The translations under genes were made by a program, and so were the position numbers. A DNA stretch of 22,500 nucleotides from Chromera velia (taxonomy: Eukaryota; Sar; Chromeraceae): positions 1 through 22,500 of the forward strand of contig JAHBMJ010001005.1 of the NCBI GenBank assembly GCA_018398765.1. The letters run 5' to 3'. The notes under the pieces were generated by a model. It made no database searches, was not told the DNA's origin, and saw only the letters and a program-made list of their open reading frames with translations. Positions within the stretch are counted from its first letter, which is position 1. Every line of letters begins with the position of its first letter. This document shows, piece by piece, positions 3,412 through 22,420 of this stretch.

Positions 3412-3497
3412 TCAGTAGGGAGAGGGCCTTCCCCCCGCTCCCCCGTTGGTCATCCCGGCGCCGCCTCTCTGGGGGCCGTAGCCAAACCCATCGCCAC
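3412..3497 (-). CDS. RRM gene exon 11 (C terminus and stop)
   Basis: Encodes GDGFGYGPQRGGAGMTNGG, then AGGRPSPY and TGA. The stop codon merges into a short GATC repeat just downstream. The acceptor is CTCTGTGCAG. Confidence 0.82.
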
Positions 3498-5975
3498 CTG
3501 CACAGAGAGAAGGAGGAAGACACGCAAACTCTCTCTCTCTCTCTCTCACACACAAACGGCTGTTGCTTTGCGGGCTGGCGCACAGGCGCTCTCTCTCTCT
3601 CTCACACACACACACCCATATCCCATAAACTTGGACCCGAGCAGACAAGAATGCAGACAAAGGAGGGAGGACACGCGGAAGGAAGGAAGGAAGGAACGTA
3701 GCATGGAGGGAAGGAGAGAGGGAAACTGACTGACCACTTCCTCCCATGCCAGTGTAGTCTGCCCCCATAGCGCCAGCCTGCTGTTGCTGTTGCCCCCCCA
3801 TTCCTCCCATGCCCCCCCACTGGCTTGGGTCCCCTCCCCACATGTTCTGCTGCTGCTGCTGCGGCTGTTGTTGAGGGGCCTGGGCCTGCCCACCGCCCTG
3901 CTGCCCCCCCATGGCGCTCCAGTCACCACCCCACGCCCCCGCCCCCGCCCCCTGGCCGCCTGCCTGCCCGCCGTATCCTCCATACGCTGCATGCATGCAT
4001 TCATATGAACTGTATGAAAAGAAACTCTGTATGAAAGAAAATGCCCGCCGTATCCTCCATACGCTGCAGCCTTGCAGCCCGGAATTCATGTAGGAACATC
4101 ACAGAAAGAAAATGTGTTTTTGTCGTACGTACGTACGGATCGCATGACCATCGCAGGAAGGAAGGAAGGAATGCTGCTGTGTATGAGGAGGACAAAATCT
4201 CTCTCAGCAGCCATTTTGGAGTGGAGGAGTGAGGATGAATCGTGGCCCTTAAAGCATAGCTCTGGAATGCACTTACACTTGCAAACACCTGTGTGTGAGC
4301 ATGCATGAAAACCCTCCCGGTCAACTTTCACGAAGAAAGAAGTGAGGGCGCAAGGGCCGGAACCCACTACTGCCGGGACATGGTGCGCACATTCTTTGCG
4401 CGTCTCCACCAAAATTCGCTTTCCGGCAAAGAAAGTTACTTTTCGGGCCATTCGAATGAATGCTCTTGACGGTAAACGGAGAAGGGTGAAGATTAACAGG
4501 CACTTAACTCTGCAGTCTTGCTCGTGTTGACCAAAGAGGACATGCAGTGCCGCCAGAAAAAAAAAACAAGCACATCAACAGAAAGAAAGAAGAGAATATC
4601 GAAATCCGATACCCACATGCTGCCCCCCCCTTTTCACCGACCGACCTGCCCACATAGCAGCAGAGGGGTCCATGCCTCCCCCCCCCATCCCTCCGTATCC
4701 CCCTCCCATCATGTTCGGGCTCATTCCCATGCCGCCCATGCCCATACCGCCCATACCACCTCCCCCCATCCCCATGCCCATCCCCCCTCCCATACCCCCC
4801 ATCGGTCCCATACCCCCCATGCCGCCCATAGGTCCGCCCATCGGCCCCCCCATAAACCCCGGACCCCCCATGCCGCCGAACGGCCCGCCACCCATGGGGC
4901 CGCCAGATCTCGGCCCTTCACTTCCTCCCATCGGCCCCATCGGCCCGTCTCCCTTTCTGCGGGGAGGATTGGCCCGACGGATGTTCACTGTCTGCCCGGT
5001 CAGCTGCATCCCCCAACACCACACACACACACACACACACAGAGGCAGGGAGGGAGGGAGGGGGGAGAAAGAAAGAAAGAAAGAGGGATGGAGCGGAGAA
5101 ACGAACAAAAAGGAAAAATGGATTGCTGGACCCCAGCAAAAAGCCCCGAGAGGGTTTCCCTCCTCATCTCTGTCTGTCTGTGTGCATCTGTACCTGCTAC
5201 CTTCATTCATGCCTTCGTTCCTTCCCGTGTTCGATGCATGTATTGCGTGTCTTGAATGAAGCGAGGAAAAAACGAAAGAAAAACCAGTGCAACCCACTCT
5301 TCTGAATCTACAGAAGGCCAAAAAAGAGGAGCAGGACTCAATGAATGAGTGAATGAATGGATGCAACAAAAGATCCTAGGATCCAGCGAACCCACAGGCA
5401 GACAAGACAGACAGACAGACAGACAAGACAAAGACAGACCTCCAGGTTTCCCTCTCCGATCGCCCTCATCACAGAGTCCTGCGACTTGAATGTCACGAAG
5501 CCGAACCCTTTGCATCTTCCCGTAGCGGCTGCATGCACTCGTACACAGACGCATGGACTTATGCAGGAGGAAGGGCTGCTCATATTGATAGAAAAAGAGG
5601 AGTCAGCAAGAAGGAAAGAAAAACGTACCACACATACATTCACGAAGGGATGATGTGAGGCATTCCGTGTAGGCAGAGAGTTACGGAAAGAAAGTAAGAA
5701 ACCGCCAACAAGTACCACAGCGCGCTCTATCTAAGAGAACTCAAAAATACGGGGGGAACACAAGTGCCGTACGGGCCCGAATGACGTGCTCTGATCTGAG
5801 CAAGCCCCCTGTCAAGAGAGCGTCATTTTGCTTCTTCGATCGCCCACCATGCAAACAACTAAACACAGAACAGCCAACGGACCCACCGTCAGTTACCACC
5901 CGTGCCTCCTCAATCTCTCCGAACTTCGAGAAGGCCTGCTTCAGAGCGTCTGCATGAACGAGACACAAACGAACA

Positions 5976-6036
<61 letters not shown>

Positions 6037-6919
6037 CGAGAGGGGGAAAAGTGAGAGGCTCTCTCTCAGTTCAGATCAGCCACGTGCGGTCTTGCTTTCG
6101 CTTCCGTTTGCAACTTTTCCACAGCTCTCATTTCCTTCTTGGTTGACTCATTATCTCGCTACAGTTCCGGCAAACAATCTTGGAAAATTGAGAGGAATGG
6201 GGTGATGACTTCCTGCTCTCCCTCTCTCCCTCCCGCCTTTGGATCAATCTTGACCGGCTGCCCAACATGCCTCTTCCGCACACTGCCTGAGAGAGATTGA
6301 TTTCCTAAGGAAGGAGCAGTAAGATCCAGAAATTGACTGCATACGCTTAGAGTAGAAAAAAAAGGCTTCTATTGCATGTCGATGGGCATCCATGAATGAC
6401 TGCTATTCATGATCAATCATGGACTGGCTGACTGCCTGACTGACTGTCGTCCGTCGTCGGGGCCAGGTTACCGATGAAGCACTTCTTGTCGGGGTCCATT
6501 TCAGGTGCCTTTCCTTCGTTCCTCAGCTCTTCAGTGGCGGGCTTCACGTCGACCTGAAAGGAGGGAGGAGTTGGAGTAGAGAAGAGAAGAGAGGTGAATG
6601 GAAGGAAATATTGATTCTCTGTTAACCTTGTTCAAAGGTACCGGCCGCTGTCAAAGAAACTGGCCGTTTTGATCTGACGCTCGACTAGAGGAAGCATTCG
6701 ATACAACTCTACACATCAGCGTCTTCGCTCGCAGGTCGACCTGACTGCATATGATGACGATACGGGTCGCCGATGAGACACACAGAGAAGGAGAGATAGG
6801 GAGACAGAGGATAAATGCGGGGGCAATGGAAGGACGTGAAAAGAAGGAAAGCACATCCCTCCCTCCCCCCCTTTCTCCATGCCCGAATTCTACCCTTCCT
6901 TCCTTCTGCCACCCTGCCT

Positions 6920-6959
<40 letters not shown>

Positions 6960-7178
6960 ATCTCTATCTCTGTCTGCCTGGCTAGCCCTCTGCCTGACTT
7001 GTTTCCCCTTGATGAAATGAGCGGCGACCGCAAAGATCTTGTCCTTCTCCGCCGCGTCTGCGATCTTCACGAATCCAAAATTCTTCGATCTCTGCGTCTC
7101 CCTGTCTCTCACAAGGTGAGCCTCCAAAACCTGCATGCGTGCAGTCACACTCTCATATACGCATCACGCGTGCACGCG

Positions 7179-7210
<32 letters not shown>

Positions 7211-9123
7211 GAGAGGCCGTGTGTACTCGGTTCCCTTTCTGCACCTTTTCCTTGCGATACGAAGAGACAGAAAGACAGACTTTAGGTGCTCTCTTCCTCT
7301 TCTTACAGACAGACAGATAGACAGACAGACAGAAGGACAGTCAGTCAGTCAGACAGACAGACAGAAGGACAGACAGACCTTCGTCAGAGTGCCAAAGTAT
7401 GTCACCATGTCCTCTGCAAAGAAAGGGACATGAAACAGAGAAGAAGGCCAACAAAGGAAGGAAACAGCTCGGTGAAATGAGTGTGAATCAGGACTGAATG
7501 AATGAATGAATGAATGAATGAATGAATCACCCATACAGACCCCCGGAGCAGTCAACCTCCGTCTGTCTGCGAGCCAGCCCGTGCCTTTCTGTCCTCTACC
7601 CCTGTTTGTCCATATATCCTTTCTGTCCACAGTGCCTGCCTGCCTGTCTCTCTGCATGTCCATGTCCATGTCTCTTCCCTTCTCTTCTTTCTTTTCCTTT
7701 CCTTTCGTCTCCTCTCCTCTCCTCACTGTCCATTAATTAGTCCAGACAGAGATTGTATGTCCTCCCGCCCTCCCTTCCCCCCGACTGAAATAAACGAAGA
7801 AAAAGAGCTCGCCAGTCTGGACCGAATGAACGTCTCCTCTTTCCCCCCTCTTTCCTTCTCCTCTCCTCACACAGTGCAACGATGAACAGAAAGGCGAAAA
7901 AACAATGTTTTGTTGTTTGTGTTTCTTAGTTCGTTTCTTTCTTTCCAAGGACAGCCGCAAGATGACAAGCCCAACTCATCGAGCGAGAGGGCGGGACAGG
8001 AGAGCAACTCAGCGATTGAACGGGAAGGAGGGGAAGAAGAAGAAGAAGAGGGGGGCCGTCCACGACCATCCAGAAGGAAGGCAGGCAGGCAGGCAGTGGC
8101 TGCTTGCACATTCCTCCCTCACACGCTCACACGTGCCTTCGCTGATTTCAGGAACCATGCCGCCGACAAAGAATTTACTGCAAAAAGAGAGAGAGAGAGA
8201 GACAAAACAAAAACAAAGCAGCGGAAAGAGAGGAGAAGGAGGGGGGCAAAAGGGGAAAGAAGCCCCAAAAACAAACACAAAGCAGAACAGAGAGAGAGAG
8301 ACAGAGGAGGAAGGGGAGACAGCTATGTGAATGCCCACATAAAATCATTTAATGACCCACACACCCTAGATTGCATTTAGATTGATCCTGCAGGTCTGCT
8401 AACAACAAAAAGCACAGTCAGTGGTGCACTCAGTCCCCTGTTCACCACAAGAGTGAGTGGACATGGGTCCGCACTCAAGAATCTCTCTCAATACACCGAT
8501 CTCACCGATCTCGTCAGTCATCAAGACACACATGAACAGCCACACAAACAAGACGCACACAGAACAGAAAAGACTTACTAGGGCTTCGCATCTGATGATC
8601 CCACTCCTCCAGCAAATGCAGCTGCTGCGGCCTTCGCTGCAGCTGCTGCCTTTGCGACCTCCAGCTCCGGTGAGTCTGCGCCTGCCCCCGTGCCGGTTCC
8701 GTTGATTACGGGCGCTGCCGACTCCGAAGTCGACTGGGCAGACTCGATCGGATCGGCCGCAGCCGCAGGGGGGGCGGAGTCGCCAGTCGCGCCTTCTGGT
8801 TGGTCTTCAGGTGCGGCCTTCACTACTTCGCCTGCAACTGGAAAAAAGAGACGAGTTCCCAACCAAACGCAAGAAAGAATGAAAAAGGACTGACTGGATG
8901 CCGACAAACCGTCATGCAGAGGGAAAGGAAGTCAAAGATCACAATCCCTTGGTCATTAAACTGCAAAGAATGCAGCCCGGTCTCAGAGACGCATTAGAGC
9001 AAATGAAAAGCAGTCTCAGAAGAGAGAAAACATACCCGCAGCATCGTTTTGGGCGACGGCCTCAGCAGCGTCAGTGTTTGGTTCGACGCAGGGCACAGCA
9101 GCTCCGTTCTCGTCAGAAGACAT
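3412..9123 (-). CDS. RNA-binding protein with two RRM domains and Gly/Met/Gln-rich tail (hnRNP A/B, Musashi or DAZAP1 type), 11 exons
   Basis: Predicted exons, in transcription order: 9123-9036, 8831-8579, 8177-8137, 7413-7379, 7130-6999, 6553-6445, 5949-5887, 5528-5440, 5003-4646, 3986-3735, 3497-3412. They total 1506 nt, or 501 residues plus TGA, with every junction in phase. Residues 1-113 are acidic and Ala-rich. RRM1 spans about 115-190, with RNP2 KFFVGG and RNP1 KNFGFVKI. RRM2 spans about 206-283, with RNP2 KCFIGNL and RNP1 KGFGFVTF. Residues 290-501 are low-complexity Gly/Met/Pro, then Gln/Gly. The RNP aromatics needed for RNA stacking are present. By family knowledge such proteins bind RNA in the nucleus and cytoplasm and act in splicing, transport, stability or translation; the exact role cannot be read here. 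The start is the ATG before MSSDENGAAV. One intron needs a GC donor. Exact orthology is not decided. Confidence 0.88.
3529..3616. repeat. CT/CA microsatellites in intron 10 of the RRM gene
   Basis: Two (CT)n tracts, each followed by a short (CA)n tract, lie inside the last intron and provide a purine-rich (GA) run on the transcribed minus strand. Confidence 0.8.
3735..3986 (-). CDS. RRM gene exon 10 (Gln/Gly-rich prion-like tail)
   Basis: Encodes AYGGYGGQAGGQGAGAGAWG, then QAQAPQQQPQQQQQNMWG and QQQQQAGAMGADY. The composition (Gln, Gly, Tyr, Trp, few charges) is prion-like. Phase 1-1 and 252 nt, so it can be skipped without a frameshift. The acceptor region is duplicated 77 bp upstream in the intron. 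Confidence 0.82.
3965..4068 (-). repeat. Duplicated exon-10 acceptor segment (27 bp, two copies)
   Basis: Identical 27-bp copies lie at 3965-3991 and 4042-4068, offset by 77 bp. Each holds TGCAG followed by the first 22 nt of exon 10. Use of the upstream copy would read through 77 extra bases and shift frame, so it is either a decoy or a source of a truncated isoform. Confidence 0.85.
4646..5003 (-). CDS. RRM gene exon 9 (end of RRM2 and Gly/Met/Pro-rich tail)
   Basis: LTGQTVNIRRANPPRRKG closes RRM2 and gives a basic patch. It is followed by about 100 residues dominated by repeats of GGM, MGG and GPM. Arg-Gly boxes are largely absent and Met replaces many positions. The exon ends DPSAAMWA in phase 1. 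Confidence 0.85.
5019..5042. repeat. (AC)n microsatellite in RRM gene intron 8
   Basis: A pure AC run just upstream (on the minus strand) of the exon 9 acceptor. On the transcript it reads as a GU repeat, a possible binding site for GU-binding splicing factors. Confidence 0.8.
5401..5439 (-). repeat. GTCT array at the exon 8 donor
   Basis: On the minus strand the intron begins GTCTGTCTTTGTCTTGTCTG and continues as GTCT units. The array begins at the splice donor itself. Confidence 0.8.
5440..5528 (-). CDS. RRM gene exon 8 (RRM2 RNP1)
   Basis: Encodes AATGRCKGFGFVTFKSQDSV and on to MRAIGEGNLE: the turn, RNP1 (KGFGFVTF) and helix 2. The donor opens a GTCT repeat tract. Confidence 0.9.
5887..5949 (-). 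CDS. RRM gene exon 7 (RRM2 helix 1 and beta 2)
   Basis: A 63-nt exon encoding NALKQAFSKFGEIEEARVVTD. The exon is phase-symmetric (1-1), but skipping it would destroy RRM2. The acceptor is TTCATGCAG and the donor GTGGGT. Confidence 0.88.
5979..6035. repeat. (TC)n(AC)n compound microsatellite in RRM gene intron 6
   Basis: A TC run (5979-6006) passes directly into an AC run (6007-6035), immediately upstream of exon 7 on the transcript. Confidence 0.9.
6445..6553 (-). CDS. RRM gene exon 6 (end of RRM1, linker, start of RRM2)
   Basis: Encodes VDVKPATEELRNEGKAPEMD, then PDKKCFIGNLAPTTDD. VDVKPA completes RRM1 in the way VDVKRA does in Musashi and hnRNP A/B proteins, and KCFIGNL is RNP2 of RRM2. 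The donor begins GTCAGTCAGG. Confidence 0.88.
6922..6972. repeat. (CT)n microsatellite in RRM gene intron 5
   Basis: A pure CT run ending in CTAT units, near the donor of exon 5. It reads as GA on the transcript and causes the overlapping Ser/Leu and Arg/Glu open frames seen here. Confidence 0.9.
6999..7130 (-). CDS. RRM gene exon 5 (RRM1 core, RNP1)
   Basis: Encodes VLEAHLVRDRETQRSKNFGF and on to AAHFIKGKQ: beta 2, the charged loop, RNP1 (KNFGFVKI), helix 2 and the start of beta 4. Both ends are in phase 0. The acceptor is GCATGCAG. Confidence 0.9.
7180..7215. repeat. (GA)n microsatellite in RRM gene intron 4
   Basis: A GA run on the plus strand, giving a pyrimidine (TC) tract on the transcript about 50 nt upstream of the exon 5 acceptor. 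Confidence 0.85.
7304..7378 (-). repeat. GTCT/GACT array starting at the exon 4 donor
   Basis: On the minus strand the intron opens GTCTGTCTGTCC and stays tetranucleotide for about 75 nt, with an internal switch to GACT units. The repeat starts at the exon edge. Confidence 0.88.
7379..7413 (-). CDS. RRM gene exon 4 (RRM1 helix 1)
   Basis: A 35-nt exon encoding EDMVTYFGTLTK, the expected helix 1 of an RRM (compare the family pattern EDLxxYFxxFG). It enters in phase 1 and ends in phase 0. Its donor starts a long GTCT/GTCC array that fills the beginning of the intron. Confidence 0.8.
7495..7527. repeat. (TGAA)n microsatellite in RRM gene intron 3
   Basis: About eight TGAA units in the 723-nt intron between exons 3 and 4. 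Confidence 0.9.
8137..8177 (-). CDS. RRM gene exon 3 (start of RRM1, RNP2)
   Basis: A 41-nt exon encoding YKFFVGGMVPEISE, the beta-1 strand (RNP2) and first loop of RRM1. The acceptor is TTTTGCAG. The frame reaches exon 4 only if the donor is AAG then GCACGT, a GC-AG intron; the nearby GTGTGAG donor would shift the frame. Confidence 0.75.
8579..8831 (-). CDS. RRM gene exon 2 (Ala/Pro/Glu-rich linker)
   Basis: Continues phase 1 as GEVVKAAPEDQPEG and is Ala-rich to its end, SSDAKP. The donor is a consensus GTAAGT at 8578. A second acceptor (CCAG) lies 6 nt upstream of the used TTGCAG and would add Val-Ala in frame, a NAGNAG-like choice. If the donor were read through, the next codon would be TAG, so splicing is needed to reach RRM1. 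Confidence 0.8.
9036..9123 (-). CDS. RRM gene exon 1 (start codon, acidic N terminus)
   Basis: Begins ATG TCT TCT GAC GAG (MSSDENGAAVPC) and ends in phase 1 before donor GTATG. The first in-frame methionine was chosen as the start. The short length and Ala/Asp/Glu composition match the N-terminal linker continued in exon 2. Confidence 0.75.
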
Positions 9124-10226: not shown

Positions 10227-11207
10227 GTGTGTGGGGAATCCGTCAGGGGCAGGCACGTCATGCAGTTGGCGGTGAGGTTTGTGAATCAAGATGAGGAGTT
10301 CAGTAGAGGGAGCGTGCATGGGTGTGTCCCGTCTCGTTCTTTCGATTCCGTGTTGATCCATTTCTGCGGATATTTTTGTACTCGCAATCCCTCTCGATCC
10401 TCCTCCCACCCCTTTCTCTCTGCCCCCTCGCCTCTCCCCTCTGTTTGTGCCGTCTCTCTCCCCCTATCTGTCAGGGTCTGGCCTTCTCCATCGCTCTGCC
10501 TCCTCTTCTGTGTTCTCCCCCCCCCTGCAGATTTGTACCTGCGATATTGGTTTACCATTATTGCGTGTATGTGTGCAGATGCAAAAGGGCCTCTTGAAGG
10601 AAGTGCGGGAGGGGACAGGCGGGGGCAGGGAGGAGAAGGCCCCAAGCAGAAGAAGACGGAGAGTGGCCGAAGAATCTTGGCCGGGGTGGGGACCGAGGAA
10701 GAGGAAGAGGATGAGAAGCCTCTCAGTCAGCACCCCCCCTCGACCTCTTCTATTAATAGAAAGGGGGGGGCATCAGGAGATAGAGAGGAAGGGGGCGGCG
10801 AGGACGAATCGGAAGAAGAAGAGCCCCTCACGAACAGACACGCAGATGCCCTTCGACTAAGGCTACCTCCCTACAACACACACACCTCCTCTTCCTCGTC
10901 CAGCAAGATGTCCGCAGCAGCAGGACAGCGAGAGAGAGAGAGGAACCCCCCCAAAGGAACATCGGGAAGCGAAACACATCAGCAGACAGGCAAGGCAAAG
11001 AACGCTTCACAGGAATCGGAAAAGTCTTTTGGAGACTTGAGCGGTCTAGGTGAGGCGGAGGCAGAAGATGACGCGGAAGAGGACGTCAGTATGTCTGTCC
11101 ATCTGTCTGTATGTCTGTAGGGAGGGCAAGAAACCATACAGCCTGTCTGACAGAAGAGAATGAAGAAAGAGAAAAAGAAAAAAAAAAAGACGATATATTC
11201 TGTCCGA

Positions 11208-11257
<50 letters not shown>

Positions 11258-14200
11258 CGCCTTTGAATTTCCACAGGCTCTCATCTCTTCCTTCATTCCT
11301 CCACAAGCTTCATGCAAGAAAAGAACAGAAAGCACAACGAGCGCATGTACGCCCACTGAGTGTGGGACGACCCAAAGAAGAGAAGAGAAGAGGAGAGAGG
11401 AGAGGAGAGGAGAGGAGAGGAGATGATTCCGTGTAGCTTCTCGGGAGAACGACAAACGAACGTGTCATTCATTATCAATCATATATCTGCCCACCAGGTC
11501 GGGCTGGCTAAGTGCTTAATTGTTTGAAGTGATTGCACGTGTACGTGCATGCAGGTGCCTTTGAGTAACATTTTTTTTTTTTTTTTTAATTGTTTGAATT
11601 GATTGCACGTGTACGTGCGTGCAGGTGCCTTTGAGTTCAACATGGCGGACGACTGGCGCGGTCCGAGTAGCATCAGGCTGGGGTGTCTTTCCCTCCGTCC
11701 CCTCTCCGGCAGAGAAGGACAAAGAGAAAGAGGCACATGAGCAGTTTCAACAGCAGAAGGGAACCGCCGGGGGGGGGAACGGAGGAAGGGGGAAGGGTGG
11801 AAGAGGGCGGCAGACGGAGAAGGACAAAGACAGAGGCCCACAAGATGGAAGTGCCACGGCAAGTCCGGAGGCTGCAGCAGCAGAGAGCGAGCCGGGGGAC
11901 GGTGAAGAAGAAGGAGACGAGGAGGAGCACTCACCTCTGGTGAAGCCGTCCTCCTCCTCCTCCTCAGCAACTCAGATTCAGAGGGGGGGCACGGGGGGCA
12001 GAGTGATGGGCACCCGGTCGCGGTCACAGGCCCAGAACCAGAAAGGGGGAGGAGGGGCGAAGGAAGGAGACAAGAGAGACGGCAAAGCTCCGGGGGGGGG
12101 TGAGAGACCGAAGGGTGGAAGGCGAGAGAGCGGCACGGCGTCTCGTCGTCTGAGTAGTTCGGGACTCGTTGGGGGGATCGGGGAGAGGGAGAGGGAGAGA
12201 GGGCTCCAACTGTTTGGGGCTCCCGGCTCATCATCCTCTTCGGTTCTTCCCTTTTCTCAGGGTGGGACTGTGCCGGACGACCTGGATGATGCCTTGGAAG
12301 AAATATCTTTGACCCAAGAAAACAGTCAGTCAGTGAGTTGGTCTAGGATTCTGGGACTCTTTCTTTCTTTCTTTCTTTCTGTTTGTCTGTCTGTCTGTCT
12401 GTCTTTCTTTCCTTCTTTCTTTCTTTCTTTCTTTCTTCCTTCCTTCTTCCCGCCCGCTTTTTGGACCCTGAAGAAAAAGGACCTTCCTGCTTTCTGTGCC
12501 GCTTTTTTCTGTCTGGACGTCTGTATCCTCAGGTGCGAACGTATGGATGGAGCTTGACATGCATCAGATTCTCCCTGTACCAAGTGAATGAAAATGTGAT
12601 CGAGATTGATGCACATGCATGCATTTGTCACTTTCTCTGCGTGTCTGTCTTCATGCGAATTCCGGCAAGTAAGTCATTGTACGACAAGGAAGGCACCAAG
12701 AAGCTTTGCAGCTTTCTTTCCTTCCTGGTTGTTGCTCGCTGTGCGTGCAGACTTGCCCCCGCTTGGGTCTCGAAGGACTGCAGGTCAGAAGAACAGAGAG
12801 AGACAAAAGAGACAGAGAGAGAAAGAGGAGCCCCAAATAGATCCCCCTAACCAGCCAGAGTGCGTACGTGTGTGAATGAATACAGGCGTGCTCGTGTATG
12901 TGTCAATATGTGAAGGAAGAAATGGAAAAAGGGGTAGAGTCTAGTGTCACGCAGCGCCGCTATGTGCATCTGTTGTGTGCGAGTATACGGTTTGAAGTTT
13001 GGGGTACAGTTTTGTACGTGCATTTCTGCGCAGACAGGAATAAGAGGAGAAAACAAACAAAAAAGATGTGTGTCGATCTGTACATGGCACCACCAACAGA
13101 GAGCGAAATAAATACCTCCACGGAGATCATCCTTCCCATCTAGGACAGCCTCTCTCCTGCTGTATGCGAGTCTTTAAAGACCTGCATGACATGATGGTCT
13201 CTAGCTGCTCGTGACCCTCCCCATGCAAGTCTAAGTCGCTGCTTGCTGCCTTTCGGAAGCACAGAGAGTGTGCTGTCTGTTCTGACACCTAGATTTTCAG
13301 AAGGATGAAGATTCCATTCAACCGAACCTCAGTTGAGAGAGAGAGAGAAGTACTGTACGAGTAGTCGAGCCTTGCAAGACTCCCATCTGCTCTTTTCTTT
13401 CTGCTTGTCCACGATTTCTGCCCACAGCAAACCGCCACAAAATTCCTCTCGTCTCTGAGGGGAGAGGCCTCTCGGAAGGGGGAAAAAGGAGAGCGCCCTC
13501 AGACGGCCACATCCCTGTTGCGGCGGACAAGGCCAAAAGGTCAAAGAGAGGCCCCCAGCCTATGCTACCACCTGTCCAGTCGCACTCACAACGAGAAGGG
13601 GGAAAGCGACAGCAGACAACGGCAGACCCCCTACGAGATCGGGGAAAAAATGCCTCCCAGCAGCAGCAGCAGCAGCTGGGGATGGGTTCTAGAGAAAGGA
13701 AGGAACGGGGGGATTATTCCCAGCAGAATCATTTAAATTTGACCGCCACCAGGTCTTCGCATGAGGAGCTCCTACTGCCCGACTTTGACAGAGCGGACGG
13801 AAGAGGAAGAGGCAGGGGGGAAGGCAGTAGTCGGGTTGGAGGGCCGCCGCTTCTGTCTCTGTCTGGCGGCATGGGGGGCATGGGTGTGGGTGTGGACCTT
13901 GTTGACGCTTTTGGAGATGAAATGAGTATGAATGGTGCATGTGGTGATTTCACAGGGAGGGCGTCGGGGAGGGCAGAGACAGGAGGGCGGAGAGGCGGGG
14001 GCATGCTCTCTTCTGCTGCCGGTGCAGCAACTAGCGCGGCCAGGAGGGGGGCGTCAGGGGCTGCTGTAAAGAAGGGGGGGGTGAAGAGTGGGGCAGGTGC
14101 GGGGAAGAGACGGGTGACGCGCACGGCCCCGGATCCTCAGATCCTCCTCAACGCTTGGGGGGCAGATTGGCGTCAAAGAACTTCTTCTTCTTCTTCTTCA

Positions 14201-15539
14201 TCTGCGTGTAGAGGGGCGTGTCAGCCCTTCCTGAAACCATCGAAAGAGAGAGACCAGCTAGGCCTAGGCAAGAGACAGTTCTTGACAGGAGGAGGTACAG
14301 AGATTTTACAGACAAAAGTCCTCAACCATCCCTCAAGAGTTCTGCTCAAAGGAGCGCAACCGAAGAAGAACACAGAGGGAGAAGAAAGAGACCCACAGCA
14401 GCAGCAGCAGCAGCATTCGCCCTCTCCCGTTCCCGAGTCACCATCTCCAGATGCCCCCCCATTTGTTCCATCTGAGCTTCCGGAGGAGGAGAGGCCCTCG
14501 TTCAATTCCCAGTGGACCCTCTTAGACCCAAAAGCAGTTGATGCCATCACTTGGAAGAGTCAGAAGCGCAACGCCGTGCGGAGACTCATTACGGAAATCT
14601 TGCCGTCTCTTCCATTTGCAGTTTTAGAGGTGAGTGCCTCGGGCTCATCGAGCGCGCCGAGCAGCCGTGAGAAAGAGCAGGCGGGGGCGTATGGGGTTTA
14701 TGAGATGGATCCTTCTGTGTCTTCCTCCCAACCTAACCAGGCACACAATCCTAATCGGGACAGAGGGGGGGAGGAGGATTCTGCATGGGGGTCTTCGCAC
14801 CCTTCCAACGCTCTATGGCCCCGCGGCCTTTGTTCCCGTATCGTCGAGGACCGCCTGGCCTCCATGAGGATGCTCCCGGGAGACATGGCGGGGGCGTGGG
14901 AGGATGCGGCAGGGAATCAGTGGTGGTCCTCGTTCTTGCAGATCCGACAGAAATCTCTCCTGTCGGTGTTGGACCCTGCCGCCTCCCGCTTACGTTCACA
15001 GGGCTGTAGCGTTCCATGGAATGACACAAAGCTGTTGAGTGTCCCCGGAAAGCGTTGGTACGGTCGTTTGCGTTGTTTTCTGGATCAGGTGTTTGAGAAG
15101 GGAGAGAGAGAGAAGGCATTGACACCTGTCGAAAAGTCGTTGTTAGACTTCACAGAAACTCAGTGGGCATGGTCCGACGCCCTCAGCAGGGGGTCCGTGG
15201 AAGAGTCGGATTTCGGCTTTCCTCGGGGAGTTCAAAAAGAGACCCAAGAGGCAATTCAGGCGGCAGAAAAGGACATGAGGGAGAGAGAGGGACTTTCGGA
15301 GAGCGTGCCTGTTACCACCCTGATACATGCGCTCCCATTCTGCCAGGAAAATTTCATCTACCAGGTCGGTTTCAGGCAGGCAGGCAGGCGGCATGTCCCA
15401 ATTCAGCGCCCTAGCTGCAGTCGTTTGTGTGTGTGTGTGTGTGTACGTTTGTTTGTGCGTGCGTGCGCGTGCGCGTGTGTGCGTGTGTGTGTGTGTATTT
15501 TTTTTTGTGTATGTATCTATATTTTTATATATATTATCC

Positions 15540-15620
<81 letters not shown>

Positions 15621-18600
15621 TGTGTGTATATGTATGTACGTATCTATCTATCTGTATTTGTGTATGTGCGTGTATTATCAACAAATCTGTTCGTGCAGAT
15701 GAAGACGTTTGCTGCGGAGGAAGCGGAGGCCAACACCAGTCGTCTCCTGCAGCTTGCCCGCATCTCGTCCCTAGTGGGGGAGGGCCAGAGGGGTATCAAA
15801 TGGGAGTCACACGTGTGTGCGTTGAAGAAAGAGCTGGCGGTCGGATGGGCCAGACTTCATCCAAGGGTTGGTGGGGGTGCGTCGAGAGGCTTTGAGCAAG
15901 ACCCTCAGAGATCTTCGAGAGACAAGAGCAGGGGGAAAAAAGAGAATGCAAAGGTGGGAAAGAGAGAGTCTCAAACAGGGGCACAGACGACGACAAGTCG
16001 TGGAAGGAGAAAAACAAGAACAAGGGATGGGGGAAGAGAAAGAGAGAGAGAAAAGTCTGCTCCAAGTTCTTCTTCTTCTTTCCCTCCCTGGGACGGCTTT
16101 TGCGTGACGGGGGCTTCTGATTTTGATGGCCTGACTTCTCCTGACACAGGCGTAGATCTTATGGATAGAGAGGCATCTCCGGTGTCCGCTTCACCGATGT
16201 CCCTCGGTGCAGGGAGTGGGGAGGTATGGGGAGGGGGAGAGGCCTCTCCCTTTCACTCTAATTCTTTGGAGCCCCCCCCCGTTCAGCTTCCCCTCCAATG
16301 GAGACGCCATCTGATCTTTCCTGACCGCCCTTCTCTCCGCTGGGACAATTTGGAGGGCCCTGGAGGGCAAGCGAATGGAGAAACGCAAGAAGAAAAAGGG
16401 GAAGAAGTTGGTAAGGAGGCAGAGGCAGAGCCTGGAGGGTTGGAGGGTCAGGACGGGACGTGCAGAGGGACACGAGGGTCTGTGGAAAGTGAGGCAGAAA
16501 GGAAGATTCGTGTCGAGATGGAGTCTGCGCTTTTGGTTGGATCTCTCCCTTCCGCCGCCTTCACGTCAGAAAAGCCTCAGCAGCCGAAAACGTCAGATAC
16601 TGAGGAGGAAAGCGAGTGGAGAGACAGAGACAGAGACAGAGAGAGACCCCGACGAAGCGGGAGGCACGGAACTGCAGCAGTAACAGCAGCCATGAGCAGA
16701 TCTGCAGGAGAACAGGAGGGAGGGGAGGCTGTTGAGGCAGATGGAGAAGGAACAGCTGGGGACGGGAGACCAAGTGAAGAAGAAGAGCAGGAAAGGAAGG
16801 AAAAAGAAAACAAAGAAGAGTCGGAGGGAGTCTCCCTGTTTCTTTCTGAGATCAACGCGCTCGTTGACGAGATTGAAGAGTCAGTTCCTCCCTCCGACCG
16901 TCCGTAGTTTGGTCAAATTGAAGTGGCACAACATTTTCTCGCTAGCTGCCTTTTGTCGGACTGAAGAGAGTGGCAAGATGCATGACGAATTTGAAGTGTG
17001 AGGGAAGGGTTGGAGCTCTCTGTCTGGGATTGGCAACCATCCTCCAAAAGCTGAAAGAAACCATTGAACAGAGCGTCCTTTTTTTTTAATGCATTTACTT
17101 TCATACAGAATTCAGTAAATGCAGGCAACCATCCAACATCTGAAAGAAGCCATTGAACAGAGAGGCTTGTTTCACTGGGGGGGAGAAGGGAGCCGTGCTC
17201 CCATACACATGCAATTTTATGGATTGGATGCATCAACATGCATAGAAGGAGACAGAGAACGAATTGATGCGCATGCGATCGCTTGCCATGGTCGCACGTT
17301 TGTCTGTCTTCCTGCCTGCAGGCTCTCCCAGATGCTAAACGAGTCCGTCCTTCCCTTTTTCCTGCCGTCCCATGAGGTCGCTCTGGGTCCCTCTGACCTG
17401 GTCCCTCTCGACCAAAGCTTCGAGACCCCGCTCGCCATGGAGCTTGCCGAACAGAAAACGGAAGAACACAAAGACATGCCGTGGCCTTTTTGGTTCCCTT
17501 CTGCTGACTCACAGGAGCCCCCGCTGATCCCAAACACAGACCCTCTCCTAGAGAACGAACCCAGCGTCCAGTTCCAGCGCGAGGGGTTTCGTGCTGTGAG
17601 GCTGCAGCCGTGGGGGGTGAGGGCGATGGGGGTCTCTGTGGGCTCTGGGGCGGGAGGAGTAGGAGGAGGAGCGTCTGTGCCTGTACCCCTTCCGTTTCCT
17701 GCGGAATTCGTGGACGGCTTGGCAGCACGCTATCTGGAGTGCAAGTCAGTCAGTCAGTCAGTCAAAATATGCTTCCAGTCAGTCAGTGAGCGAGTGAGTT
17801 AGTCAGGTCAGGTGTAGATTCTTTCCCTTCGGCAGGTAACTTGAATGAACGACAAAGGACGCATGGAAGGTGTTGTCTACGCCTCCACCCTGCCTGCCTC
17901 CTTTCCTATCGTATGTTCTCGCGCGGTTTCTGTTTGAACAGCAGCATGATGGATTCAGCCCCTCGCTCGGTGTTCGGCTCTCGACTTTTGGTATTTGTGT
18001 TTGCGAGTGATCGTTCGATGAAGTTGACGTTCTTGTTGCGTCTGTCAATGACCTGCCTGCATTGTGTTTTCTTTCCTTCTTTCGTTCAGACTGTGGCTCA
18101 CTGAAAGGAGGGAGGCCGAAATAAAATGCAAGGCCCTGTTGGTGAAAGCAGCTACTCTGGAGTGGTGCAAGTCAGCAGCAGGCTCTTTCTTTCCCTATCT
18201 ATCTCTGTGCTCCCTCCCTCTCCCTCTCTCTCTGTATGTGTGTGTGTGTGTGTGTGTCAGTCAGTCTGTCTGTCTGTCAGCCTGTCAGTCTGTCTGTCTG
18301 TTTTTGTCTGTTGTGTTTGTGAAGAAGAAGAAGGAAAGAAAGCATATAGTCTGTCTGTGTGTGTGCTCTCTTTCCTTTCTTCGCTTTCTCTTCGGCGTTG
18401 TGCCCCCCCCTCTCTCCCTCCTTCGGATTCCGTTTGTTAACGGGGATCGCGTGCAGGCAGGTGGGCGTCTCGTCCAACGCTCCTTCTGTCTGCATGAATA
18501 CGTGTTACATGTGAGAATGTTTCTGTTTCCGTGTGCATGCATCTTGTGCATATGTGCATGCACACGTATACATGTGTTCCTCTGCCGCTGCATATCCGTG

Positions 18601-19762
18601 AGGTTCCTTCTGTATAGCCCCTCTCTCTGCCTGCCTGCGTGCCTGCCTGCGTGCCTGGCTGCCTTCAGAGAGGTCCAAGCAGACGCAGTGAGGCTGAGTG
18701 AGGGGGGCGATCTGATCAACGAGTGGGGGTGTCTGCCTGCACGCGTGTTCGATAACCCAGACTCAATACAGGTCAGCCAGCAAGTCATTCAGTCAGTCAG
18801 TCAGTATGACCAATCAACGGTTACATACAAAAGCCGAGAGGACATAAGATCAGATGAAATGGGGTCAGAAGACAGCACGGGTGGGGGTCTGTCTGGGTCT
18901 GTCAACATGCGACGAGTTGCATGGGTGAGGTCTCTACTCTGCGGATGCAGAGAGAGAGCCGTGGCCAACGGCCGCGACGCCCCCTTCGCATGAGTAGATT
19001 CTGCGAGGCCCAAGCTTACGCACGCACACACGCACGCGCACATGCAGACAAGTAGAAAGAGCAGAGAGAGACGCACACTGTCACAAGTATTTCAGGCAGT
19101 TCTGAACAAAGAAGCAGTTGGCTAAGACTCCACCGCTATGAAGCACTCAAGGGAATTAATTGAGTCAGTCAGTGCGGTCCAGGGGAACTAACTCAGTGGA
19201 TTCATTCGACGGATGAATGGATCCATGGATGGATGAAGGGAGTCATCTTGTGCTGGTCTGCTCTTTCGTTTTTGGATCCGGTACTTAGACCGCGCTCACT
19301 GAAGTCTGGTAGACAAGCAGGCAATTTCGCAAGGGTGGTAGAGAGGGAGCAGCGAGGAGAAGCAGAGAAAGACCCCTCACCCTCTCCCGATGGTCTATCT
19401 CTCGGACAACGCTCGACACAGACTCATTCGTGCCGGTCACTTAATTCTCCGAGGTTCGAGCAGGCAGGCAAAATCGGAGGGATACTGTCGGCAGCCAGAG
19501 AAGAGAAGAGACTCTTTCTTGTGTTTGCACCTACCTGCACAGCAAGTCGTTTCTCTCACGCTCACCAGATTGCACTTCTTTCTCACTTAATTCTGCTCTC
19601 TCTGTGCTGCTGCAGGCACTGCCCCAACAGACGTGGCAGCTCGTGGACCCTCAACTGACCTTCAATGACGAAACTGCAGATGTCTGTCTGTCTGTCGGTA
19701 GTGAGTGAGTGGTAGTGAGTGAGTGAGTGAGTGACGCTTTTGTCTCGTTTCTTGTGTACGTG

Positions 19763-19802
<40 letters not shown>

Positions 19803-19844
19803 TCTGTCTCTCCGTCTCCCTGTCTCTCCAAAAGAGTGTGTGTG

Positions 19845-19878
<34 letters not shown>

Positions 19879-22420
19879 ATGATGATGTATGTCATTTCGC
19901 TCCCATGTCGTCTTTCCGCTTTGCCGGTTTGTACTCATCATCCGGTCTGGTTGCATGGGGATGCCTTTCCGCCCTCTGTCACTCTGTGCGTGTGTGTGTG
20001 CGTGAGGTCTTTGCGGTCGTCCTCTCTCTCTCTCGCTCGCTCGCTCTCGCCTTCTTTCTGCTTTCTGCTTTCACCCACCCCTCGGCGTTGACGGTCCCGT
20101 CCCTTCTTCTTTCGTTCTCTTCCTCTTTTCTTCCTGCCTGTATGCCTCCCGCATGTCTGCCTGCCCGCCTGCCCGCCTGGTTGCCAATGTGATTGATCCA
20201 CAGGCCGGAGACGAGACGTTGCGACAAGCGGAGATGACCTTCCGGACGAGAACAAGAGGCCTCGGGAAGCAGCACGCCGAGGGTGAGGGGGAGGGTGGCC
20301 GTTTTTCAGTCAGGGAGTGGGGGCTGTAGGTTTTCTTCGTGGGCGTCTTTGCGTCTCTCACCTATTTCCTTTCCCATCGCAACTGAAGAGTTTCTTCTCT
20401 CTTTGTCCCCTTTTGCCTCTCTTACTCTTTGCATTCGTACAGCCGAGTCTGCCTGCAGCGTTGGTTGCATGGCTCTGTGACTCCTGATCGATGCCTCGCT
20501 CTCTGTTTGCCATCCTGAACTGAAGTCGCTATTTTAGGCATCATGTGTTCTCTTTTGCAAAAAAAACTTCGGCGAGGGGTTTTTGCGTGAGTGGTTTCAC
20601 AATGAAGCGAAAGTCTTTTGCCTGTCCGGATGTCTGGAACTCAACTCAAGAAGTCCCTCGGTCCCTCGACTGGCCTGCCTCCTCGTTCCGCACTGGCCGG
20701 AGGGATGCATGAGTGAGTGAGTGAGAAAAGAAAAGAGTGCATGGAAGAAGAAGAGTGAATGCACTTAAGAGGGTGACCGTCGTCACGTGAATGCAGGTGC
20801 AGCTGCACACGCAGGGGGTACGGCCGGAGCCCCTCACCTTCACGGGCAGCCGCCCGGGGGGATCACAGGGTACATGTCCTTCCACGGCAATCTGACAGGA
20901 CCGTCGCCGAACTGGAGAAACACTCTCGTGCAGAGTAGCCACCTCTCAGAGATGGTCATGCGGTCAGTCAGTCAGTCAGTCAGTCAGTCAGTCAGTCAGT
21001 CAGTCACAGTGACTTTCAGTCAGTTAAGAGGGACGACTGACCGACCTTTCTTCCTGCATTGGACCTTCCGACAGGCAGTGAGTGAGTGAGTGAGTGAGTG
21101 AGTGAGGAATTGATTGAGTGAGCGAGGGATCCCTGCAGCCAGTTTGGGGATATACATCTCAATGCAGAACAATATGCTTCCCTGTGGGTTGCATTATGTA
21201 GAAGAGAGAGAATGTGTGAGGGGAGGGGAGGGGAGGAGAGAATGTAAAAGAGGGCGAGCGAGAGCACGAAGAAGACCCATGGAAGAGAAGACAATGGAAA
21301 TTAAGGGACAAACGTTCATGCTGCTAGCGATCTGCTGCTTGCCTGCCTGAGTGAGTACTCACTGGGGGCTGCTCAGTCACGCGAACGCTGACCATTCAAT
21401 GAGAAGCCCCTCATGTGTTCTCTCTCGTGTTTCCCGCTTTAATTTTCGATTTCTGCAGTGTGAGTGTGCTTCCCGAAAAGAAGAGTGGAGGGGGGAGCAA
21501 GAAAGCAGGGGAGTGGGAGAAACAGTTGTGGCGCACGCAGAAAGGCAAGGGAAAGGCCTTCTAGAAGAAAAAGGATCCAAAAGAAGGAAGCAGGGTAATT
21601 TCTTTCGTCCTTCTTATTGCTTCCTCCCTTCCTGTGTGTCTGCTTGCCTTCAGGAAAGCTGAGGAGGAGGTCAAGTACGTCTGCGCGGGACTGAAGGTTC
21701 GTTTTTCTATCGATCTCTATGTGTTTGCCTGTGTCGCTTTGATGTGATTGTGTTGCTGGAGTGATTGACTGGCTGCCTGACGGACTGATGGACGGACGTA
21801 GAGGCGAGACTCGTCTTCAAGCTGAGGAGGACAGTCGATCGATCAGGGTTTGGAGAAGAGAAGAGAAGAAGAAAACAGACGAGCAGAGGGCCCCCTCCCC
21901 CCAAAAAACGACTTCACACCACGGAGGGATGTGTGGAGCTCTCTGTCTGTTGTTGTGCTCCTCCCGCCTTGATTGTTGCCTCCGTCCTCGTTTCTTCTGT
22001 CCTTATCGTCCTCGTTTCTTCTGTCCTTATCGTCCTCGTTTCTTCTGTCCTGATCGTCCTCGTTTCTTCTGTCCTTATCGTCCTCGTTTCTTCTGTCCTT
22101 ATCGTCGTCGTTTCTTCTGTCCTTATCGTCCTCGTTTCTTCTGTCCTGATCGTCCTCGTTTCTTCTGTCCTGATCGTCCTCGTTTCTTCTGTCCTTATCG
22201 TCCTCGTTTCTTCTGTCCTTATCGTCCTCGTTTCATGGTGTGAGAGAGAGGGAGGGAGGTGTGCATGTTGAGAGAGCTCAACACACACTGAGGACCCAAC
22301 GCAATGCTCGGCCTGCAGGTGGACGACTGTGAGTCGTCGGATGACCGCCGGAAGTTTGAGAACGTGTGGGCACGGCACGAAGTGGTGCAGCTGCTGCGGG
22401 GGGTTCTGGCGGCCGGAAAG
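10058..22420 (+). CDS. Very large hypothetical protein, at least 14 exons, incomplete at right edge
   Basis: Predicted exons: 10058-10226, 10579-11088, 11713-12324, 12751-12783 (or 13301-13331), 13428-15364, 15699-16903, 17322-17744, 18090-18170, 18669-18771, 19616-19681, 20204-20282, 20797-20962, 21654-21696, 22319-22420. They sum to 5529 nt (1843 codons) with all phases matched, and the last exon ends at a donor at 22421, so the gene continues. Residues 1 to about 430 are disordered (Glu, Gly, Ser, Lys). About 441-1087 mix poly-Ser and poly-Gln with Trp-containing blocks, 1088-1488 hold helical then acidic sequence, and 1489-1843 are more ordered, with charged helices. I recognise no catalytic motif or domain. 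It may be a nuclear scaffold or regulatory protein, but that rests only on composition. Confidence 0.72.
10579..11088 (+). CDS. Large gene exon 2 (acidic, disordered)
   Basis: Starts [20 protein letters not shown] after acceptor TGTGTGCAG. It contains an EEEEEDE tract, DESEEEEP, poly-Ser and an [11 protein letters not shown] end. The donor GTATGT gives phase 1, needed for exon 3; an alternative donor 4 nt upstream (GTCAGT) would shift frame. Confidence 0.7.
11208..11255. repeat. (CT)n(GT)n microsatellite in large gene intron 2
   Basis: A CT run passes directly into a GT run inside the 624-nt intron. Confidence 0.9.
11375..11422. repeat. Purine repeat (AGGAG-type) in large gene intron 2
   Basis: Pentanucleotide AGGAG/AGAAG units, strand-asymmetric purine tract of about 48 nt. 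Confidence 0.85.
11516..11636. repeat. 51-bp direct duplication flanking a T run
   Basis: Copies at 11516-11566 and 11586-11636 differ at two positions and are separated by 19 nt that are almost entirely T. Each copy contains CACGTGTACGTG and ends with an acceptor-like GTGCAG or ATGCAG followed by GTGCCTTTGAGT. They lie just upstream of exon 3. Confidence 0.9.
11713..12324 (+). CDS. Large gene exon 3 (Gly/Ser/Glu-rich)
   Basis: Encodes [16 protein letters not shown], a Gly/Arg tract, an acidic tract ([11 protein letters not shown]), poly-Ser, and [20 protein letters not shown]. Three overlapping donors stand in the GTCAGTCAGTGAGT array (ends 12324, 12328, 12332) and give all three phases; the first and last each fit a downstream micro-exon. 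Confidence 0.72.
12325..12450. repeat. Donor-anchored GTCA array and (TTTC)n/(TGTC)n tract in large gene intron 3
   Basis: The intron begins GTCAGTCAGTGAGT and shortly afterwards enters TTTC, TGTC and TTTC tetranucleotide runs (12358-12450). The Phe/Leu/Ser-rich open frame here is an artefact. Confidence 0.85.
12751..12783 (+). CDS. Large gene micro-exon 4 (alternative a)
   Basis: A 33-nt segment ([11 protein letters not shown]) between acceptor GTGCGTGCAG and donor GTCAGA, phase 1-1. It joins the 12324 donor to exon 5 in frame. It competes with the 13301-13331 segment; I cannot decide from sequence alone. Confidence 0.35.
13301..13331 (+). CDS. Large gene micro-exon 4 (alternative b)
   Basis: A 31-nt segment ([10 protein letters not shown]) after a good acceptor, GATTTTCAG, with a weaker donor GTTGAG. 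Phase 0-1, it pairs with the strong GTGAGT donor of exon 3 and reaches exon 5 in frame. The acidic sequence continues the character of exon 3. Confidence 0.35.
13428..15364 (+). CDS. Large gene exon 5 (1937 nt, poly-Gln, poly-Ser and Trp blocks)
   Basis: Entered in phase 1 at CCCACAG; reads [18 protein letters not shown]. It contains [17 protein letters not shown] and [10 protein letters not shown] tracts, then blocks that look folded: [20 protein letters not shown] with [16 protein letters not shown], and [18 protein letters not shown] with [11 protein letters not shown]. It ends CQENFIYQ at donor GTCGGT. A GTGAGT at 14630 would be a good donor, but the frame stays open with similar composition beyond it, so I keep one exon. 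Confidence 0.8.
15426..15660. repeat. Compound GT/CT/AT microsatellite in large gene intron 5
   Basis: GT-rich, then CT, then an AT run, then GT again, filling most of the 334-nt intron. All three frames are nearly free of stops, so apparent coding continuity from exon 5 through this region is not real. Confidence 0.92.
15699..16903 (+). CDS. Large gene exon 6 (helical start, acidic end)
   Basis: Starts [20 protein letters not shown] after TCGTGCAG and has [16 protein letters not shown] Lys/Arg-rich stretch, a Trp segment ([18 protein letters not shown]) and a Glu-rich stretch follow. It ends [18 protein letters not shown] in phase 2 at donor GTAGTT. Without splicing, TAG follows immediately. 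Confidence 0.78.
17032..17162. repeat. Diverged direct duplication around a hairpin in large gene intron 6
   Basis: Two copies starting ggcaaccatc and ending cattgaacagag lie at 17032-17073 and 17124-17162 (small indels between them). Between them is a T run (about 17079-17088) and a perfect 10-bp inverted repeat: tgcatttact at 17090-17099 and agtaaatgca at 17114-17123. Confidence 0.85.
17322..17744 (+). CDS. Large gene exon 7
   Basis: Acceptor CTGCCTGCAG; encodes [20 protein letters not shown], then [16 protein letters not shown], a Gly/Val stretch and [13 protein letters not shown]. Phase 2-2. The donor is the first unit of a (GTCA)n array. Confidence 0.82.
17745..17763 (+). repeat. (GTCA)n at the exon 7 donor
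   Basis: About five GTCA units start at the first intron base, so several equivalent GTCAGT donors lie at 4-nt steps. Confidence 0.88.
18090..18170 (+). CDS. Large gene exon 8 (81 nt)
   Basis: Encodes [18 protein letters not shown], then KAATLEWCK, a charged probable helix. Phase 2-2 on both sides, so it can be skipped in frame. Confidence 0.78.
18235..18303. repeat. GT and GTCT/GTCA microsatellites in large gene intron 8
   Basis: A GT run followed by mixed GTCA and GTCT tetranucleotides. Confidence 0.85.
18669..18771 (+). CDS. Large gene exon 9
   Basis: Encodes [20 protein letters not shown], then [14 protein letters not shown]. Acceptor CCTTCAG, donor GTCAGCC, which leads into a GTCA array. 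It continues the helix of exon 8. Confidence 0.8.
19616..19681 (+). CDS. Large gene exon 10
   Basis: Encodes [20 protein letters not shown], then AD. Acceptor GTGCTGCTGCAG. The chosen donor (GTCTGT) is the first of several in a GTCT/GTGA array; the stronger GTGAGT at 19701 would change the phase and read exon 11 in another frame. Confidence 0.65.
19682..19736 (+). repeat. GTCT then GTGA array at the exon 10 donor
   Basis: The intron starts GTCTGTCTGTCTGTCGGTAG and then becomes GTGA repeats, giving many overlapping GTGAGT donors. Confidence 0.88.
19767..19878. repeat. (GT)n microsatellite pair in large gene intron 10
   Basis: Two long GT runs separated by a CTGTCT-rich spacer. Confidence 0.9.
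20204..20282 (+). CDS. Large gene exon 11
   Basis: Encodes [20 protein letters not shown], then GKQHAE, ending in phase 1 before GTGAGG. Its +1 frame is also open, but only this frame joins exon 12 in its longest and most protein-like reading. Confidence 0.65.
20797..20962 (+). CDS. Large gene exon 12
   Basis: Encodes [20 protein letters not shown], then [20 protein letters not shown] and SSHLSEMVM. The donor is the first unit of an 11-unit GTCA array. It joins exon 13 in phase 2 to make a continuous helix-like [13 protein letters not shown]. Confidence 0.72.
20963..21006 (+). repeat. (GTCA)n at the exon 12 donor
   Basis: About eleven GTCA units begin at the first base of the intron. A GTGA run follows at about 21077-21107. 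Confidence 0.9.
21459..21594 (+). other. Candidate poison exon in large gene intron 12
   Basis: A 136-nt segment bounded by a good acceptor (GATTTCTGCAG) and a good donor (GTAATT). Entered in the phase left by exon 12 it reads [20 protein letters not shown], then GKGKAF and TAG. Because 136 is not a multiple of three and it stops in frame, inclusion would truncate the protein; the main transcript should skip it. Confidence 0.35.
21654..21696 (+). CDS. Large gene exon 13 (43 nt)
   Basis: Encodes [14 protein letters not shown] after acceptor TGCCTTCAG. Only phase 2 entry is free of stops, which identifies exon 12 as its partner. Confidence 0.75.
21985..22234. repeat. 24-bp minisatellite, 10 full copies plus a partial one, in large gene intron 13
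   Basis: The unit is tcctcgtttcttctgtcctt followed by atcg. The only differences are a T/G variant near the unit end (order T T G T T T G G T T) and one C-to-G change starting copy 6. As 24 is divisible by three, frames on both strands stay open, giving spurious repeat proteins. Confidence 0.95.
22319..22420 (+). CDS. Large gene exon 14
   Basis: Encodes [20 protein letters not shown], then [14 protein letters not shown], phase 0-0. Acceptor GCCTGCAG, donor GTCTGGTCTGG. The gene continues beyond the window. Confidence 0.78.

Follow-up and report, generated by a model that had tools for sequence, protein, structure and literature searches.

Splice donors as probable seeds of tetranucleotide arrays in the genome of Chromera velia

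Results

Two genes of the window and their splice donors

The window analyzed in this work (22,500 nucleotides, positions 1-22500 of contig 1004 in a 177.8-Mb Chromera velia assembly of 4040 contigs) contains two multi-exon genes. Both genes were built by reading frame and homology, the first build of the gene finder described below being partly wrong there. The plus-strand gene (10579..21564) was assembled as 11 exons with an undefined 5' end (10579-11084, 11625-12324, 13428-15364, 15699-16879, 17322-17744, 18090-18170, 18669-18771, 19616-19681, 20204-20282, 20797-20962, and 21459-21564). Cut at the GTs named in the original prediction, these exons join into one open frame, the sole stop being terminal. 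No Pfam match was obtained for the six exon pieces of this gene that were searched. A 24-bp minisatellite (10.5 copies, 97% matches) was found 3' of the last exon, at window positions 21983-22234. The minus-strand gene (3412..9123) comprises 11 exons, which together form a single uninterrupted frame beginning with ATG and closed by a stop codon. Its product is hnRNP-like, with a pair of RRM domains and a tail rich in Gly, Met, and Gln, as judged by frame and by Pfam and PDB searches. Joining across 8124, 7378, and 6998 yields a piece with RRM_1 at 28 bits, and joining across 6444, 5886, and 5439 yields one with RRM_1 at 71 bits. The PDB entry closest to this second RRM piece was a poly(A)-binding protein, scoring by several domains, followed by a nuclear polyadenylated-RNA-binding protein and then by hnRNP D-like, A2/B1, and A1 proteins. 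A 26-bp stretch of this gene including the acceptor and the first bases of exon 10 (3966-3991) is exactly repeated 77 bp away inside the intron (4043-4068), providing a second possible 3' splice site.

The original prediction held that the GT of the 5' splice site is the first unit of a tetranucleotide array in both genes, and named nine such donors. Run lengths in the window are those of the exact period-4 run counted from intron base 1, and a slash marks the exon-intron border. Long arrays begin at three of the nine donors, all located in the plus-strand gene. CAA/(GTCA)5 at 17745..17764 (20 bp, phase 2) is in frame with the exon starting at 18090. GAT/GTCTGTCTGTCTGTC at 19682..19696 (15 bp, phase 0) is in frame with the exon starting at 20204, and GTGA units follow this ladder from about 19701. 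GCG/(GTCA)11 at 20963..21006 (exactly 44 bp, phase 2) is joined in frame to the last exon (21459-21564). Five donors have shorter runs of 8-11 bp. In the plus-strand gene, ACA/GTCAGTCAGT of exon 3 (12325..12334, 10 bp) fits the acceptor at 13427/13428 by frame. The minus-strand gene contributes AAG/GTCTGTCTGTC inside the first RRM (7368..7378, 11 bp), ACA/GTCAGTCAG and GAG/GTCTGTCT inside the second RRM (6436..6444, 9 bp, and 5432..5439, 8 bp, respectively), and GTG/GTCAGTCAGT (3725..3734, 10 bp). The ninth donor, CAG/GTCAGC on the plus strand (18772..18776), is a run of 5 bp and not an array, GTCA units beginning about 20 nt inside this intron and not at its first base. Since both genes are in one frame with the named donors, all nine are right by frame. 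A 10-bp run that was absent from the original list is present at the minus-strand donor CAG/GTCGGTCGGT (4636..4645).

Runs of at least 10 bp were found at 7 of the 20 donors of the two genes versus 7 of 121 introns from elsewhere in the genome (p = 0.0007), indicating that the window is richer in donor arrays than the genome. GY occupies both +1 and +5 (the GYNNGY criterion) in 99 of the 121 introns and at 17 window donors out of 20; the nine named donors are all among these 17. As had been predicted, each rung of a ladder alters the reading phase, 4-nt steps cycling through the phases and every third rung, 12 nt on, restoring the frame. At 12325, a single rung of the run fits the frame; two rungs fit at each of 17745 and 19682 (the second 12 nt on), and four at 20963 (the further three 12, 24, and 36 nt on). 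Since rungs 12 nt apart share the same phase, the frame permits more than one rung in the long ladders.

Donor consensus and spliceosomal RNA genes

An alpha-tubulin encoded by the genome matches solved alpha-tubulins over 400 residues, the best entries being 7tnt and 7miz, which we take to be Toxoplasma alpha-tubulins. Donors were defined by homology by aligning an intronless tubulin (L030) to seven multi-exon loci of the tubulin family. Twenty-three of 26 introns were kept, two being dropped for poor alignment (L035) and one for a doubtful donor (L034). Among these 23 donors, G was present at -1 in 19, A at -2 in 15, G at +5 in all 23, and T at +6 in 18. Position +3 was occupied by C in 11, G in 9, and A in 3 donors (C or G in 20/23), and position +7 by C in 11 and G in 5.

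A gene finder was trained with donor and acceptor models derived from the 23 tubulin-family introns, as long ORFs alone provided too little coding sequence, and was applied to 188 kb of sequence taken from four contigs that had been selected by number, 16.6 kb of this sequence being masked. The output of 110 introns was reduced to 98 by removal of four introns from low-scoring genes and eight introns longer than 3 kb, and the addition of the 23 tubulin-family introns led to a set of 121. GT-AG borders were imposed by the aligner and by the finder in all intron sets. The donor model used positions -3 to -1, +3, +5, and +6, which are partly circular in the 98 introns, positions +4 and +7 onward being free. 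In the 121 introns, +3 was C in 63, G in 41, A in 13, and T in 4, and +5 was G in 115; +4 was A in 45 and G in 36, +6 was T in 81, and +7 was C in 51 and G in 33. The first unit was GTCA in 32 donors and GTGA in 10. The usual donor consensus is GTRAGT, in place of which donors of this genome tend toward GT[C/G]N-GT[C/G]. The latter motif nearly repeats after 4 nt; thus, the donor signal consists of two units of a period-4 repeat.

Three matches to U1 were found in the genome (L043, L044, and L045), of which a single one exceeds the Rfam cut-off, the other two being weaker. Two of the three copies display the 5' end AAACUUACCUG, which starts with the canonical AAACUUACCUGGC; the third is devoid of a 5' end, lacking the first 11 model positions. 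The U6 box GATACAGAGAAGATTAGC is present in five of six hits, the sixth harboring one change. A canonical U1 5' end and a U6 ACAGAGA box, characteristic of U2-type splicing, are therefore both present among the genes of this genome, and no changed U1 or U6 accounting for C or G at +3 was found among the three U1 and six U6 matches.

Left ends of arrays across the genome

If donors act as seeds, arrays are expected to begin preferentially at the G of GT. (GTCA)≥4 arrays were therefore counted by the phase of their left end on both strands of the whole genome, provided that all four preceding bases were off-phase. These four-base-clean counts replaced earlier counts based on one off-phase base, which were confounded by interrupted arrays; the reversed search pattern is, by complement, another phase of the same arrays. 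Clean left ends were distributed as 736 on G, 352 on A, 241 on C, and 97 on T (chi-square, p = 3 × 10–136). Starts in the A phase would include donors with A as the last exon base. For GTGA, 205 left ends were in the G phase versus 164 in the opposite polarity (p = 0.037). The corresponding counts for GTCT, 1698 versus 696, were set aside because a TATA flank probably marks a repeat family. Enrichment at intron base 1, which the original prediction had proposed as its own test, was thus clear for GTCA and bare for GTGA, the GTCT count not being used.

Of 100 clean (GTCT)4 left ends that were listed, about 59 have the TATA/GTCT flank in common (count by eye), often with several per locus, as at G000:C38:27314-28145 and C81:24431-25120; this flank may correspond to a repeat family or to a mutational hotspot. 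Separately, the GTCA-class arrays at G000:C31:48234 and G000:C40:50920 follow an identical 10-base flank, CACATAGCTG, and start in different phases, which may point to a repeated element carrying a microsatellite tail.

Among GTs without an in-phase preceding base, runs of at least 10 bp were found at 4 of 75 donors versus 11 of 1906 intron-interior GTs (p = 0.002). In the set of 121 introns, the donor run was at least 10 bp in seven and at least 16 bp in one. Taking the mean of the other phases as background, the G excess of about 500, together with a clean-flank correction of about 0.42, leads to an estimate of about 1,200 donors with (GTCA)≥4 genome-wide. By comparison of the C and G phases (241 versus 736), we estimate that background may account for up to about one-third of the G-phase left ends.

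Coding sequence upstream from arrays

Twenty G-phase arrays with non-repetitive flanks were chosen by eye in contig order and analyzed for coding sequence on both sides. The test covered G-phase arrays only, with runs of at least 16 bp by construction of the search, and 9 of the 20 were also four-base-clean. The stop-free length upstream from the array was too weak as a sole criterion (median of 240 nt at the 20 arrays versus 171 nt at random positions, p = 0.001), and a coding score and homology were used instead. In 19 of the 20 cases, the coding score dropped from the upstream to the downstream side of the array, the remaining case going from 0 to 0 (Wilcoxon, p = 0.0001). The median upstream score was 7.7 versus 1.7 at random positions (p = 3 × 10–5), and there was no excess downstream. 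Since the upstream score was 3.0 or less in five cases (L046, L050, L054, L056, and L062), the score does not establish coding for every array.

Pfam matches above the cut-off were obtained upstream from 4 of the 20 arrays: Peptidase_M16 (L048), Pkinase (L057), Kinesin (L060, in which the array comprises 14 units and 57 bp), and RTE1 (L056). Each of the four matches ends mid-profile, at one of the two residues immediately preceding the array. L048 also matches chains resembling MPP-beta through its last residue before the array. In L063, the 16 residues that lead up to the array are all identical to those of a succinate-CoA ligase beta (E = 0.0034). No homology reaching the array was found for the other 15 of the 20 loci.

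Copying and extension of the donor motif

The second unit of the donor copies the first (+3+4 identical to +7+8) in 24 of the 121 donors, versus 12.1 expected by permutation (p = 0.0008). Copying at lag 4 was similarly detected in interior decoys (24/150 versus 12.2, p = 0.0013). Lags 3, 5, and 6 also exceeded the permutation at +7 or +8 (39 versus 28.8 for lag 3 and 41 versus 29.9 for lag 6), indicating that general low complexity contributes too; at +3, lags other than 4 gave no excess in the permutation of the 121 donors.

Seeds were defined as GTSNGTS of at least 7 bp with an off-phase start. Extension to at least 10 bp was as frequent at donors (4/23) as at other sites (41/232, p = 1.0). 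This equality suggests that the growth step is ordinary and that it is the seed that is special, and is the main ground for proposing slippage seeded by the donor. Room is left for something special at donors, since GTCA seeds alone reached 10 bp in 3 of 11 donors versus 2 of 34 other sites (p = 0.085) and GTNNGT sites displayed runs of at least 12 bp at 3 of 44 donors and at 3 of 150 sites inside introns. Extension was less frequent at donors (7/37) than elsewhere (199/559, p = 0.048) once all GTs within arrays were included in the count. GTGA is closer than GTCA to the classical donor, yet shows little excess of left ends (205 versus 164, as above); with 10 GTGA versus 32 GTCA donors among the 121, pure seeding predicts a larger GTGA excess than was seen.

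Exon side of array donors and ladders at both intron ends

The exon side was analyzed for 47 G-phase left ends called clean by a script among 100 listed. AG precedes the array in 5 of the 47, versus 13 of 22 tubulin-family donors in which -1 is not A (p = 5 × 10–5). The weak exon side of array donors is not predicted by neutral growth alone. It raises the possibility that the ladder is functional, tandem U1 sites rescuing donors with a weak exon side and arrays being kept by selection. An excess was also present for clean starts in the A phase (352, versus 97 in the T phase), which would include donors with A at -1, in agreement with such a rescue. However, ordinary donors show the same trade-off between exon and intron in the absence of arrays, AG being present in 11 of 45 donors with A at +4 versus 42 of 76 otherwise (p = 0.0012). 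Thus, GTCAGT tends toward weak exon sides (AG in 5/20 versus 48/101, p = 0.085). Within the 121 introns, AG was not depleted at runs of at least 8 bp (7/17 versus 46/104, p = 1.0) and was weakly depleted at runs of at least 7 bp (13/40 versus 40/81, p = 0.084), and the background share of the G-phase left ends also weighs against this explanation. Together, these observations make retention of the arrays by selection unlikely.

Of the 47 left ends, 40 had one or more of C-3, A-2, and G-1; equal use of the four bases, an expectation that ignores coding composition, would give 62.5% (p = 0.001). Inner GTCA rungs, which follow TCA, have no match to CAG. This suggests, without proof, that pairing with the exon selects the first register.

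Periodicity at both intron ends was analyzed in 110 introns with a length of 100 bp or more. At +9 to +24, GT was counted 55 times in the phase of the donor and 33, 17, and 27 times in the three remaining phases (p = 0.00015); no such signal was seen at +41 to +72 in these introns. Acceptors are mostly TGCAG (84/121), although the acceptor model used positions -5 to -3, making this count partly circular outside tubulin genes. TG in phase with TGCAG was found 99 times at -24 to -8, versus 50, 39, and 61 times in the other phases (p = 0.00015), the signal fading by -72 to -41 (p = 0.15). TG counts at -9, -13, -17, and -21 were 30, 30, 24, and 24, versus about 12 at most other places, although 22 and 18 were observed off the ladder at -11 and -19, respectively. 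The TG ladder upstream from the acceptor, with its 4-nt step, is the mirror of the donor ladder. Both ladders (+9 to +40 and -40 to -8) were detected in 20 tubulin-family introns (p = 0.017 and 0.002, respectively) and in the other 90 introns (p = 0.013 and 0.003). Both intron ends might be 4-nt ladders acting as multi-register docking sites through which the spliceosome tolerates weak exon sides, signals and microsatellites shaping each other, a reading that we consider unlikely. If it were true, reading frames could drift in 4-nt steps.

Discussion

The consensus of the donors, the phase of the left ends, the drop in coding at arrays, the equal extension of seeds, and the canonical snRNA genes are most simply brought together by a donor signal that is itself a period-4 repeat. 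This signal probably acts as a standing seed for slippage, from which some donors grow into ladders. Selection keeping seven to eight bases, N(A)G/GT[C/G]N GT[C/G]N, at intron starts would maintain the seed for strand slippage, and a genome that readily makes tetranucleotide arrays from seeds would let some donors grow into (GTNN)n from intron base 1. Growth of the ladders would be confined to the intron, as the code holds the exon side. Splicing would stay on the first rung because the exon bases there usually contribute one or more pairs with U1; TCA, which precedes the inner GTCA rungs, contributes none. We infer that slippage is the mutation, that the first rung is used in the RNA, including that of the long ladders, and that exon pairing chooses the register. 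The ambiguity between rung 1 and rung 4 in long ladders leaves the seeding argument untouched. Among the three meanings offered by the original prediction, the first, seeded slippage starting from the donor motif, has the strongest support, based on the period-4 consensus, the copying of units, and the equal extension of seeds. The second, a possible buffering of donor loss, would agree with the weak exon side of array donors (AG in 5/47 versus 13/22), but the exon-intron trade-off is seen at ordinary donors as well.

Tetranucleotide arrays could abound in introns to the point that some touch a donor by chance. Tetranucleotide runs of at least 12 bp do account for 2.7% of the sequence, and GTSNGTS seeds extend no more at donors than elsewhere. 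However, chance contact is at odds with the uneven phases of the left ends, with the excess of runs at donors over intron-interior GTs, and with the drop in coding score at 19 of 20 arrays. Coincidence is therefore refuted as a full account and is improbable, the extension step itself being still without demonstrated donor specificity.

Array introns could alternatively be newly inserted introner-like elements bringing their own (GTCA)n 5' end, since array donors are devoid of the usual exon-side consensus, as random insertion into coding sequence would give. Against this origin, any similarity was detected in only 8 of 7260 pairs of the 121 ordinary introns, six of these over 25-37 bp only, and end-to-end inverted repeats of at least 8 bp were found in 4 of 110 ordinary introns versus 2.2 after shuffling. 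Thus, neither introner families nor inverted repeats joining the ends were found in the ordinary introns tested; in the 20 array introns, the reading was by eye and extended over about 140-185 bp downstream from the array. We regard recent insertion as very improbable. Amoebophrya, in the excerpts of the report describing its introner elements (PMC7789003), is an alveolate with unusual intron ends, a group to which the present genome is inferred to belong; the ordinary introns tested here differ in that no families were found among them and that inverted repeats between their ends were near chance.

Deliberate frame choice, that is, alternative splicing at successive rungs, received no support and is extremely unlikely: direct reading of the sequence indicates that GTCA arrays contain no stop codon in any frame and that three rungs add VSQS in frame, but with splicing at the first unit the frame is preserved across all resolved introns of the two genes (10/10 in the plus-strand gene and 10/10 in the minus-strand gene).

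Under the preferred reading, in which the donor seeds the array, the ladders resemble other microsatellites. Short tandem repeats of this type grow by slippage from short seeds. Perfect period-4 units likewise continue beyond the donor motif (44 bp at 20963 and 20 bp at 17745), and extension is equal to that found elsewhere. Because the seed is a splice signal, the left ends of arrays are pinned to exon ends, unlike those of ordinary microsatellites.

Tandem donors located 4 nt apart are already known. Mammalian GYNNGY (delta-4) tandem 5' splice sites have GY at +1 and +5, and use of the second site shifts the frame, according to excerpts of two reports (PMC4267661; PMC2423196). The donors described here share GY at these two positions, as judged from sequence alone, but the 4-nt spacing runs on to 11 units in the window and to 14 units in L060, and the consensus is GTSNGTS instead of GTRAGT. 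What seems to be new is that donors form the left ends of tetranucleotide arrays. A literature search covering titles and abstract starts of open-licence PMC papers retrieved no report of arrays starting at donors. The Chromera velia genome paper describes a genome in the same size class as the present assembly, with a high low-complexity content, and mentions strand-specific RNA-seq data for Chromera; its main text, as accessible, contains no occurrence of "splice" and no splice consensus was found there (PMC4501334).

A functional signal seems to double here as a mutational seed, in a case that can be counted through the left ends of GTCA arrays across 178 Mb. It bears on how the spliceosome picks one register among the near-identical donors of a ladder, and on whether the growth of repeats at splice sites is neutral or is paid for in frameshifts.
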